64,000 bases of DNA from contig NZ_AP027081.1 in NCBI RefSeq assembly GCF_030295425.1, positions 1,798,001 through 1,862,000 of the forward strand, read 5' to 3'. The notes under the pieces are model-generated. The model searched no databases and had not been told where the DNA came from. It saw nothing but the letters and a program-made list of their open reading frames with translations. Made by a program: the position numbers and the translations under genes. The stretch is from Mesoterricola sediminis (GTDB lineage: Bacteria > Acidobacteriota > Holophagae > Holophagales > Holophagaceae). Of this stretch, positions 29,421 through 32,665 are shown one piece after another (position 1 is the first letter of the stretch; each line of letters opens with the position of its first letter).

Positions 29421-30773
29421 ATGGGAAGGGTGGTTGTGGTCGGGGCTGGACGTTCGGGCCTGGGGGCCGCGGGGCACCTGGCCGCCTCGGGTCGCGAGGT
29501 CGTGCTGACCGAAGGGAAGCCCGGGCCGGATCCCGCGGCCGCGGAGCTGCTGTCGAACCTGGGCGTCCTGGCCGTATGGGGATCGCACCCCCTGTGCCTG
29601 CTCGATGACTGCGAGGAGGTGGTGCTGAGCCCGGGCGTGAGCCCCGCCATCCCCTTCGCCCAGGAGGCGGCCGCCCGCGGCATCCCCGTCACCGGGGAGC
29701 TCGAGCTGGCCCACCGGGCCCTGCGGGCGCGGGGCGACGGGGCGGTGATCCTCGCGGTGACCGGCACCAACGGGAAGAGCACCACCACGGACCTGACCGC
29801 CCACCTCCTCAAGACCTCCGGCCTGCCCACCCGCGCCTGCGGGAACCTGGGCATCCCCCTGGTGGAGGCCATCGCCGGCGCCGAGCCCGGCACCCGCTTC
29901 GCCCTCGAGTGCTCCAGCTACCAGCTGGAGACGGTGCGCGACTTCAAGGCGGAGGCCGCCGCCGCCCTCAACCTGACCCCGGACCACCTGGCCCGCCACG
30001 GCACCCTGGAGGCCTACCGCGCCGCCAAGGTCCGCATCTTCCAGCACCAGACGCCCGAGGACCTGCGCCTCACCCCGCTCGCGGACCCGGCCTTCGAGGC
30101 CCTCGCCCCAGGCCACGGCCTCAGCGCACGGTTCGGGTGGACCTGTCCCGACGGCCCCGGCGCCTGGTGCGACGACCACGGCACCCTCTGGCTGCGGGAC
30201 ACCCATGGGGAGCACCCGCTCGTGAACCGCTCCCGCCTCCTCATCCCCGGCGACCACAACGTGGAGAACGCCCTGGCCGCCGCCGTGCTGGCGGAACGGG
30301 GCGGGGCGGAGCTGGACGCCATCCGGGAGGGCCTGCGCACCTACCCCGGCCTCGCCCACCGCATCGCCCTCTGCGGGGAACGCGACGGCGTGGAGGCCTA
30401 CAACGACTCCAAGGGCACCAACGTGGACGCCACGCTCATCGCCATCCGCGCCCTGCCGGGCCCCCTCGTGCTCCTCCTCGGGGGGCAGGGGAAGGGCACC
30501 GGGTACGGTCCCCTGCGCGGGGCCCTGGAGGGCAAGCTGCGGCGGCTGATCTTCCTGGGCGAGGACATCCCGCGCCTGGAGGCCGACCTCGGGGACCTGC
30601 CCCACACGTCCATCCAGGCCTTCGACGAGGCCGTCGAGGCGGCCCTCGCCCTGGCCGAGCCCGGCGACCAGGTGCTGCTGAGCCCCGCCTGCGCGAGCTT
30701 CGACCAGTTCCGCAACTTCGAGGCCCGCGGGGAGCGGTTCGAGGCCCTGGTGAAGGCCTGGAGCCGGGGATGA
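29421..30773 (+). CDS. murD: UDP-N-acetylmuramoyl-L-alanine:D-glutamate ligase
   Basis: MurD adds D-Glu to UDP-MurNAc-L-Ala. The 450-residue product has a Rossmann-type N-domain (VVVVGAGRSGLGAAGHLA), SPGVSP, P-loop VTGTNGKSTTTDL, CGNLGIPL, ECSSYQLE, LTPDHLARHG, DHNVENALAAA, AYNDSKGTNVDAT and LLLGGQGKG, with SPACASFDQFRNFEARG at the end. AAAGGAG at about 29409-29415 fixes the ATG at 29421; an ATG at 29406 is less likely. It must have its own promoter or read-through past the antisense EAL gene. Its TGA overlaps the next gene (ATGA at 30770). Confidence 0.96.
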   Translation: MGRVVVVGAGRSGLGAAGHLAASGREVVLTEGKPGPDPAAAELLSNLGVLAVWGSHPLCLLDDCEEVVLSPGVSPAIPFAQEAAARGIPVTGELELAHRALRARGDGAVILAVTGTNGKSTTTDLTAHLLKTSGLPTRACGNLGIPLVEAIAGAEPGTRFALECSSYQLETVRDFKAEAAAALNLTPDHLARHGTLEAYRAAKVRIFQHQTPEDLRLTPLADPAFEALAPGHGLSARFGWTCPDGPGAWCDDHGTLWLRDTHGEHPLVNRSRLLIPGDHNVENALAAAVLAERGGAELDAIREGLRTYPGLAHRIALCGERDGVEAYNDSKGTNVDATLIAIRALPGPLVLLLGGQGKGTGYGPLRGALEGKLRRLIFLGEDIPRLEADLGDLPHTSIQAFDEAVEAALALAEPGDQVLLSPACASFDQFRNFEARGERFEALVKAWSRG

Positions 30774-32665
30774 GCGGCATGGAGGACGCCGTCCAGGCCG
30801 CGCGCTACCGCGCCTTCGCGGGCGCCCGCGGCGCCGCGGGCCGCTGCCTCGTGGTGGACGTGGCCGGCCAGCGCCTCGGCCTCCTCGTGGACGGGGAGGC
30901 GGTGGCGGACTGGCCCGTCTCCACGGCGTCGGCCGGCATCGGCGGGGAGGACGGATCGTACCGGACGCCCCCCGGATGGCACCGCATCCACGCCTGCATC
31001 GGGGAGGGGGCGGACCCCCTCGCGGTCTTCCGCGCCCGGGTCGCCACCGGCGAGGTGTGGGACGGCGCGCCCGGCGGCGGGGACCTCATCCTCGGCCGCG
31101 TCCTGACCCTGGACGGGGAGGAGCCCGGCGTCAACCGCGGCCCCGGCGTGGATTCGCTGGAGCGCACGATCTACATCCACGGCACCAACCACCCCGAGGA
31201 CCTGGGCAGGCCGGCCTCCCACGGCTGCGTGCGCATGGCCCCCGCCGACGTCCTCGACCTCTTCCGGCGGGTGGAGGCGGGGGATCCCGTGCTCGTTGCC
31301 GTCGGATCCGCCGGGCGCCTCCACTTCACGGGGGTGGGGGGGAGCGGCATGAGCGCCCTGGCCCAGTTCATGGCCTGGAGCGGCCACGAGGTCAGCGGGA
31401 GCGACCGGGGTTTCGACCAGGGGCTCAACCCCGAGGGCCGGGCCCGCCTGGAGGCGGCCGGCATCCGGATCCTGCCCCAGGACGGCGCCGGCGTGGCCGC
31501 GGACTGCCTGGGCGTCGTGGTGTCCACCGCCGTGGAGGACACGGTGCCCGATGTGCGCGAGGCGCGCCGCCTGGGCGTGCCGGTCCTCCACCGCTCCGAG
31601 TGCCTGGCCCACCTGGTGGCCTCCCGGCGGACCCTGGCCATCACGGGGACCAGCGGGAAATCCACCGCCGTGGCCATGGCCTTCGAGATCCTCGCTGGCG
31701 CCGGATGGGACCCGGCGGTCGTCACCGGCGGCGACCTCCTCGCCCTGCGGGACCGGGGGCTGTGGGGCAACGCCTGGGCCGGGGCTGGACCCCTCGTGAT
31801 CGAGGCGGACGAGAGCGATGGCTCCCTCGTGCGGTACCGGCCGGCGGTGGGCGTCGTCATGAACCTCCAGCGGGACCACAAGGAGATGGCGGAGGTGGCG
31901 GCCCTGTTCCGCACCTTCCGGGGGCGGGTCCGGGAGACCTTCCGGGCCGGCGACGGCCCCGGCCTCGAGGGCCTCGCCCGGGACGGGGAGCGCTTCGGCC
32001 TGGGGCCGGGCCCCGGCCTGCGGGCCCTGGGCGCCGCGGCGGGCCCGGCCGGCTGCGCCTTCACCGTGGAGGGGGTCCCCTTCACCCTGCCCGTGCCTGG
32101 GCTCCACAACGTGGAGGACGCCCTGGCGGCCATCGCCGGCTGCCGGGCCCTGGGCGTGCCCCTGGCGGACATGGTGGCCCCCCTGGCGGCGTTCCGCGGG
32201 GTGGCGCGCCGCTTCCAGGTGGTGGGATGCGACCGGGGCGTGGAGGTCGTGGACGACTTCGCCCACAACCCGGCCAAGGTGACCGCCGCCCTCCGGGCCG
32301 CGCGGGCCCGGGCGGCCCGGGTGCTGGCGGTCTTCCAGCCCCACGGGTACGGCCCGATGCGCTTCCTGCGCGCCGACTTCACCCGGGCCTTCGCCGGGGA
32401 GCTGGGGCCCGGCGGGATCCTCTGGATGCTGCCCATCTTCTACGCCGGCGGCACCGTCACCCGGGACATCTCGTCGGAGGACGTGGCCGCGGACATCCGC
32501 GCCCTCGGCGCCGACGCCCGTCCCGCCCCGGACCGCCCGTGGCTGGCGGAGGCCATCGCCGCGGAGGCGCGCGAGGGCGACCTGGTCCTCGTGATGGGCG
32601 CCCGGGACCCGTCCCTCAGCGCTTTTGCGGAATCGGCGCTCCGGTCCCTGCGAGCACGTCCCTGA
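30770..32665 (+). CDS. fusion: YkuD L,D-transpeptidase/carboxypeptidase domain + MurC/Mpl-type UDP-MurNAc ligase
   Basis: One 631-residue chain with no signal peptide or membrane segment, so cytoplasmic. Residues about 25-178 are a YkuD domain with His137 (YIHGTN) and the catalytic SHGCVRM (Cys153). The surrounding TPPGWHRIHACIG, TGEVWD and GVNRGPGVDSLER resemble the short cytoplasmic YkuD L,D-carboxypeptidases as I recall them. Residues about 183-631 are a Mur ligase: LHFTGVGGSGMSALAQFM, P-loop TGTSGKST (293-299), EADESDGS, PGLHNVEDALAA, ARRFQVVG and VDDFAHNPAKV. The P-loop Ser replaces the usual His of MurC/Mpl. Overlap with murD is ATGA. It may be MurC itself or a recycling ligase. The 3' end overlaps the convergent kinase by 50 bp. 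Confidence 0.9.
   Translation: MSGMEDAVQAARYRAFAGARGAAGRCLVVDVAGQRLGLLVDGEAVADWPVSTASAGIGGEDGSYRTPPGWHRIHACIGEGADPLAVFRARVATGEVWDGAPGGGDLILGRVLTLDGEEPGVNRGPGVDSLERTIYIHGTNHPEDLGRPASHGCVRMAPADVLDLFRRVEAGDPVLVAVGSAGRLHFTGVGGSGMSALAQFMAWSGHEVSGSDRGFDQGLNPEGRARLEAAGIRILPQDGAGVAADCLGVVVSTAVEDTVPDVREARRLGVPVLHRSECLAHLVASRRTLAITGTSGKSTAVAMAFEILAGAGWDPAVVTGGDLLALRDRGLWGNAWAGAGPLVIEADESDGSLVRYRPAVGVVMNLQRDHKEMAEVAALFRTFRGRVRETFRAGDGPGLEGLARDGERFGLGPGPGLRALGAAAGPAGCAFTVEGVPFTLPVPGLHNVEDALAAIAGCRALGVPLADMVAPLAAFRGVARRFQVVGCDRGVEVVDDFAHNPAKVTAALRAARARAARVLAVFQPHGYGPMRFLRADFTRAFAGELGPGGILWMLPIFYAGGTVTRDISSEDVAADIRALGADARPAPDRPWLAEAIAAEAREGDLVLVMGARDPSLSAFAESALRSLRARP

Follow-up and report, generated by a model that had tools for sequence, protein, structure and literature searches.

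The window analysed here is a stretch of 64,000 nucleotides from Mesoterricola sediminis (contig NZ_AP027081.1, positions 1,798,001 to 1,862,000, forward strand). It contains a gene (30770-32665, + strand) in which a YkuD domain is joined to a Mur ligase, considered here as a candidate enzyme of peptidoglycan recycling. The gene, its parts and its upstream neighbour are as follows.

30770-32665, + strand: whole gene, YkuD fused to a ligase of the MurC/Mpl superfamily (631 amino acids; single open frame, Pfam domains, same fusion elsewhere)
30848-31297, + strand: YkuD domain, ElsL-like (residues 27-176; Pfam PF03734, with the ElsL model NF040925 as best match across the whole domain)
31178-31180, + strand: codon of His137, predicted catalytic histidine of YkuD (IHGT motif, invariant in intact fused copies)
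31226-31228, + strand: codon of Cys153, predicted catalytic cysteine of YkuD (SHGCVRM motif; the cysteine is invariant in intact fused copies)
31298-31312, + strand: short linker between the Pfam domains (residues 177-181)
31313-32662, + strand: ligase part (residues 182-631), third clade beside MurC and Mpl by Pfam, tree and predicted fold
31646-31666, + strand: P-loop GTSGKST (residues 293-299), with Ser where MurC and Mpl have His, invariant in 50 of 50 clade members
32336-32371, + strand: acceptor-side loop QPHGYGPMRFLR (residues 523-534; MurC equivalent QPHRYTRT), both MurC arginines replaced clade-wide (residue roles from PMC3060825)
29421-30773, + strand: murD, directly upstream, its TGA overlapping the ATG of the fused gene (ATGA)

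Structure and distribution of the fused gene

An earlier note, made from the DNA alone, had described a YkuD domain and a Mur ligase in one continuous frame, with only a few residues between them and no signal peptide. All of this was borne out. The translation runs through 631 amino acids to the stop without interruption, and Pfam places YkuD at residues 27-176 (E-value 4.6e-21), Mur_ligase at 184-286 (5.1e-17), Mur_ligase_M at 291-372 (1.3e-4) and Mur_ligase_C at 480-612 (1.4e-17), leaving a junction of about five residues. Both halves retain their catalytic residues: H137, S150-H151-G152-C153 and R155-M156 in YkuD, and GTSGKST (293-299), EADESD (345-350), H370, R480/R481 and DDFAH (495-499) in the ligase. 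By inspection, the N-terminus MSGMEDAVQAARYRAFAGARGAAGRCLVVD lacks a hydrophobic leader, as do those of the other fused proteins, and direct reading of the window protein showed neither the signal peptide nor the membrane anchor of an exported L,D-transpeptidase.

In the genome survey suggested in the earlier note, 14 of the 25 host-family genomes sampled carried this fusion (frameshifted in G002). A second, independent set of genomes yielded it from Candidatus Eisenbacteria and from Hyphomicrobiales, among them Methyloceanibacter methanicus, M. superfactus and M. marginalis. A few copies from metagenome-assembled genomes (MAGs) are frameshifted (L016, L050, L065), and one Eisenbacteria MAG (L051) encodes the two halves as distinct open reading frames that overlap. 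Since the full-length frame is open in many independent assemblies, a sequencing error or frameshift that makes one gene out of two, a concern of the earlier note, is ruled out. A literature search, with limited coverage of subscription journals, turned up no description of a YkuD-Mur ligase fusion.

Among NCBIfam models, ElsL (NF040925) matches the YkuD half best and over the whole domain, with 106-150 bits in the fused copies and 106-110 bits in the window protein, below the strict cut-off of 270. Transpeptidase models align only with the domain's final 40-odd residues and score no more than about 31 bits. The catalytic histidine and cysteine are invariant in the intact fused copies examined. 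ElsL (LdtK) of Acinetobacter is a leaderless YkuD L,D-carboxypeptidase, the loss of which lets Mpl reuse tetrapeptides harmfully (PMC8649774). The YkuD half resembles it in the missing leader, the full-length match, the catalytic His/Cys pair and the proposed step; it differs in its score and in being joined to a ligase. Because the protein is leaderless and its other half is an ATP-dependent ligase of the type acting on UDP-N-acetylmuramic acid (UDP-MurNAc), the YkuD half is taken to be cytoplasmic.

The SHGC motif reads SCGC, SQGC or SSGC in several Hyphomicrobiales fusions and one from Eisenbacteria (L034, L035, L038, L041, L042, L043, L049), with the catalytic cysteine and the upstream histidine retained. 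In a sister family of the host, ElsL-like YkuD proteins occur both with and without a signal-peptide-like N-terminus (L162/L171, L173 and L177 versus L172, L174 and L197). Hence, the score on the ElsL model does not tell the compartment.

The ligase half and its clade

The fused ligase scores 266 bits on the MurC model TIGR01082 (equivalog cut-off 335.1) and 101 bits on the Mpl model TIGR01081 (cut-off 388.7), below threshold in both cases. A tree of 78 ligases separated into three groups, namely Mpl (100/100), MurC (100/97) and a third clade that holds the fused ligase (100/100). The phylogeny suggested in the earlier note thus groups the ligase with neither reference family. Within the third clade, the fused proteins and the ligase of genome G017 form one subclade (100/98). 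The tree is unrooted, and the position of the root decides which of MurC and Mpl is sister to the third clade.

Diagnostic changes recur across the third clade (TGTSGKST, DDFAHN, QPHG(Y/F), GARD). The amino acid-binding residues reported for Haemophilus influenzae MurC are H376, R377, R380, Y346 and H348 (PMC3060825). In the fused protein, Y346, H348, H376, R377 and R380 correspond to F497, H499, H525, G526 and P529, i.e. three of the five L-Ala-contacting residues, both arginines and the tyrosine, are replaced and both histidines are kept. Both arginines are replaced in all 50 third-clade members and the tyrosine in 49; the 17 canonical MurC proteins keep all three (17/17).

The predicted structure has a mean pLDDT (predicted local distance difference test) of 83, the ligase being confident and YkuD less so (blocks from 30 to 86). 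The best structural match to the ligase fold is product-bound MurC (1p3d, Z 45.9, root mean square deviation (rmsd) 1.9 over 429 residues). The ligase filled the fold search lists; for the fold of YkuD, the evidence is Pfam and motifs. Judged by profile hidden Markov models (HMMs), tree and residues, the fused ligase is neither MurC nor Mpl but a member of a third clade, and its reading as simply an Mpl was rejected on the same three grounds. Of the "MurC/Mpl-type ligase" named earlier, the full Mur ligase stands and the Mpl type does not, HMM and fold being nearer to MurC.

The comparison with known ligases can be put briefly. With MurC (TIGR01082; 1p3d) the fused ligase shares the closest fold and HMM and the EADESD motif, but it falls below the cut-off, forms a separate clade, has lost the L-Ala-contacting arginines and tyrosine, and coexists with a canonical MurC in the same genome. 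With Mpl (TIGR01081; 3hn7, PMC3060825) it shares the proposed reaction, the three-domain Mur ligase architecture and the Phe-Ala of the DDFAH motif; unlike Mpl, it carries YkuD, belongs to a separate clade and lacks the Glu-Pro-Arg-Ser and Ser-Asn-Gly residues conserved there. Another fusion of a MurC-type ligase to a peptidoglycan enzyme is the MurC-Ddl protein of Chlamydia (PRK14573 model, NF011171). There, however, the partner is a D-Ala-D-Ala ligase of de novo synthesis placed C-terminal to MurC, whereas here a hydrolase stands N-terminal to a ligase of another clade.

Recycling genes and genomic context

In the host genome (G000), the fused YkuD domain is the only one. A canonical MurC is encoded elsewhere (C1:1087648-1088970, L113; 554 bits on TIGR01082 versus the cut-off of 335.1), and the fused ligase was consequently rejected as the only MurC of the host. 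No ligase of this genome exceeds the Mpl cut-off and no S66 LdcA was found in it; AmpG is present (433 bits, over its cut-off). Thus, the import step exists, and trimming and ligation have no other candidate among the families searched. The canonical murC (L113) sits outside the dcw cluster, and none of the annotated genes around it was recognised as a dcw gene.

All 12 checked fusion genomes of other groups carry a canonical MurC plus the fused ligase, and neither a third, Mpl-like ligase of the MurC/Mpl type nor an S66 LdcA was found in these 12. The missing Mpl is meaningful because a real one would have shown: the model used gives Escherichia coli Mpl 273 bits. Across 119 genomes of the phylum, an Mpl-like match was found in 74 and the fusion in 9, with no overlap. 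Two sister-family genomes without the fusion (G025, G027) encode, in separate genes, an Mpl-like ligase and an ElsL-like YkuD protein, the latter with a signal-peptide-like start in G025 and without one in G027.

Ligases of the third clade also occur without YkuD. In G017, inside the fused subclade, the stop codon of such a ligase gene and the beginning of an S66 LdcA gene overlap at a point free of sequence gaps; genes for a peptide-binding protein and oppB-C-D-F follow. LdcA is unrelated in family to the YkuD half and encoded separately, and it is absent from G000 and the 12 fusion genomes of other groups; it shares the proposed trimming step. It therefore looks as if one L,D-carboxypeptidase has been swapped for an unrelated one in G017. 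In five large-genome Elusimicrobia, the gene immediately upstream of a stand-alone ligase is of the NlpC/P60 type, and an Amidase_3 gene lies no more than about 6 kb downstream. In small-genome Elusimicrobia (L067-L108; Elusimicrobiaceae), the stand-alone ligase comes after dapA-asd-dapB in most loci. Three Planctomycetota genomes (G060-G062; L084, L076, L077) have only three Mur_ligase_M matches each: the third-clade ligase, a further Mur-type ligase and a weak match that may be FolC. No full MurC-F set was seen among these matches.

The gene order around the fusion varies. murD lies directly upstream in L004-L007 and L016, all of the host genus, and not in the other genera examined. The placement inside the dcw operon made in the earlier note therefore holds for the host genus and not as a general feature, and the location was rejected as functional evidence. 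In the window, the dcw cluster is interrupted between mraY and murD by an opposite-strand open frame (28628-29893, - strand) which, by eye only, resembles an EAL-type domain protein.

Proposed function and its alternatives

We consider it probable, on comparative genomic grounds, that the fused protein unites cytoplasmic tetrapeptide trimming and tripeptide re-ligation, as a bifunctional L,D-carboxypeptidase/murein-peptide ligase. The YkuD half (Cys153/His137) would act as an ElsL-like L,D-carboxypeptidase, removing the terminal D-Ala from recycled tetrapeptide; a muropeptide, the free peptide or UDP-MurNAc-tetrapeptide could be its substrate. The protein would then stand in for LdcA/ElsL plus Mpl, and joining trimming to ligation would limit the known damage from attaching untrimmed tetrapeptide. 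Both activities, the identity of the substrates and any channelling between the halves are what we infer. The two-step scheme, already put forward in the earlier note, appears well supported because of the ElsL-model match, the presence of AmpG without Mpl or LdcA in the host, and the exchange for LdcA next to an Opp-type cluster in G017; of that earlier proposal, only the Mpl type and the general dcw position have fallen away.

Several observations weigh against this scheme. The residues specific to the C-terminal part of Pseudomonas aeruginosa Mpl (Phe374-Ala375-His376-His377, Glu402-Thr407, Ser483-Gly485; PMC3060825) are mostly absent from the fused ligase, which keeps only the Phe, the Ala, the first His and the Pro, and its predicted fold superposes less well on Mpl (3hn7, Z 31.5, rmsd 4.6 over 424 residues) than on MurC. 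The nine fusion genomes of the phylum survey all belong to one family, and the phylum-wide exclusion of Mpl is therefore one clade and counts as one event. Nor is the exclusion of LdcA absolute, since some host-family genomes carry an S66 gene alongside the fusion. The G017 evidence comes from one MAG with a completeness of 71%, in which the ligase gene itself contains gaps. In three of three Elusimicrobiaceae genomes checked, moreover, MurC has no other candidate than the third-clade ligase; MurD-, MurE- and MurF-type ligases are present as well. There it is probably an ordinary MurC and its acceptor may be L-Ala, although these ligases have the same changed pocket and lack the MurC arginines. 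The pocket consequently does not exclude L-Ala, and the incompatibility with L-Ala read from the lost arginines is weakened. Set against the peptidase-paired loci, the role in Elusimicrobiaceae indicates that the clade has more than one role and that the pocket alone cannot settle the substrate. Peptide ligation by the fused protein is thus a putative activity.

These Elusimicrobiaceae ligases also favour the main rival explanation, in which the ligase half acts as a MurC isozyme, giving the cell a second ligase for L-alanine, the YkuD half independently edits UDP-MurNAc-peptides or muropeptides, and the fusion serves co-regulation rather than consecutive steps. The clade provides the sole MurC candidate of that family, in a dapA-asd-dapB operon; HMM and fold are closest to MurC, and murD is co-located in the host genus. 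However, every fusion genome checked also has a canonical MurC, the two arginines and the tyrosine that contact L-Ala are replaced, and the clade pairs with three kinds of stem-peptide hydrolase gene, which together make an isozyme rather unlikely. We give still less credence to the idea that the YkuD half merely supplies trimmed material. An acceptor pocket fitting neither MurC nor Mpl would agree with it, as would the NlpC/P60 gene adjoining the stand-alone ligase in Elusimicrobia, since NlpC/P60 can release dipeptide (PMC9928106); yet an L,D-carboxypeptidase partner turns tetrapeptide into tripeptide, and the dap genes beside the Elusimicrobiaceae copies suggest a peptidoglycan with meso-diaminopimelate. 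The least probable alternative, to which we assign only a very small chance, makes the YkuD half a regulatory, inactive or transpeptidase domain. Most YkuD domains are L,D-transpeptidases, scores stay below the ElsL cut-off, SHGC is replaced by SCGC, SQGC or SSGC in some copies, and equally ElsL-like proteins of the sister family can have a signal peptide. On the other hand, the leaderless domain fused to an ATP-dependent UDP-MurNAc ligase would be cytoplasmic, the catalytic His and Cys are kept in every intact copy examined, and an LdcA gene takes its place in G017.

Beyond the single protein, trimming and re-ligation by the fusion would belong to a wider picture, for which we see about even chances. 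A third UDP-MurNAc ligase clade, spread over several phyla, would serve as the only MurC in Elusimicrobiaceae and elsewhere have been recruited to peptide recycling through partners from unrelated peptidase families (fused YkuD, S66 LdcA, NlpC/P60). The fusion itself would then be a single-protein enzyme for trimming and reattaching tetrapeptide in bacteria that searches for LdcA/Mpl homologues would call non-recycling.

Ligation of untrimmed tetrapeptide harms mutants of E. coli and Acinetobacter. If our reading is true, the fusion of trimming to ligation is a simple safeguard against such attachment. The absence of LdcA and Mpl homologues has been taken as a sign of possible degradation of stem peptides to amino acids in Caulobacter (PMC13046382) and Agrobacterium (PMC9790009). 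Some genomes without these homologues would instead reuse whole peptides, by means of an enzyme that reaches neither the Mpl nor the ElsL cut-off. With L-Ala or a peptide as acceptor within one clade, the third clade would also offer a natural comparison for how Mur ligases select their acceptors, which is poorly understood.
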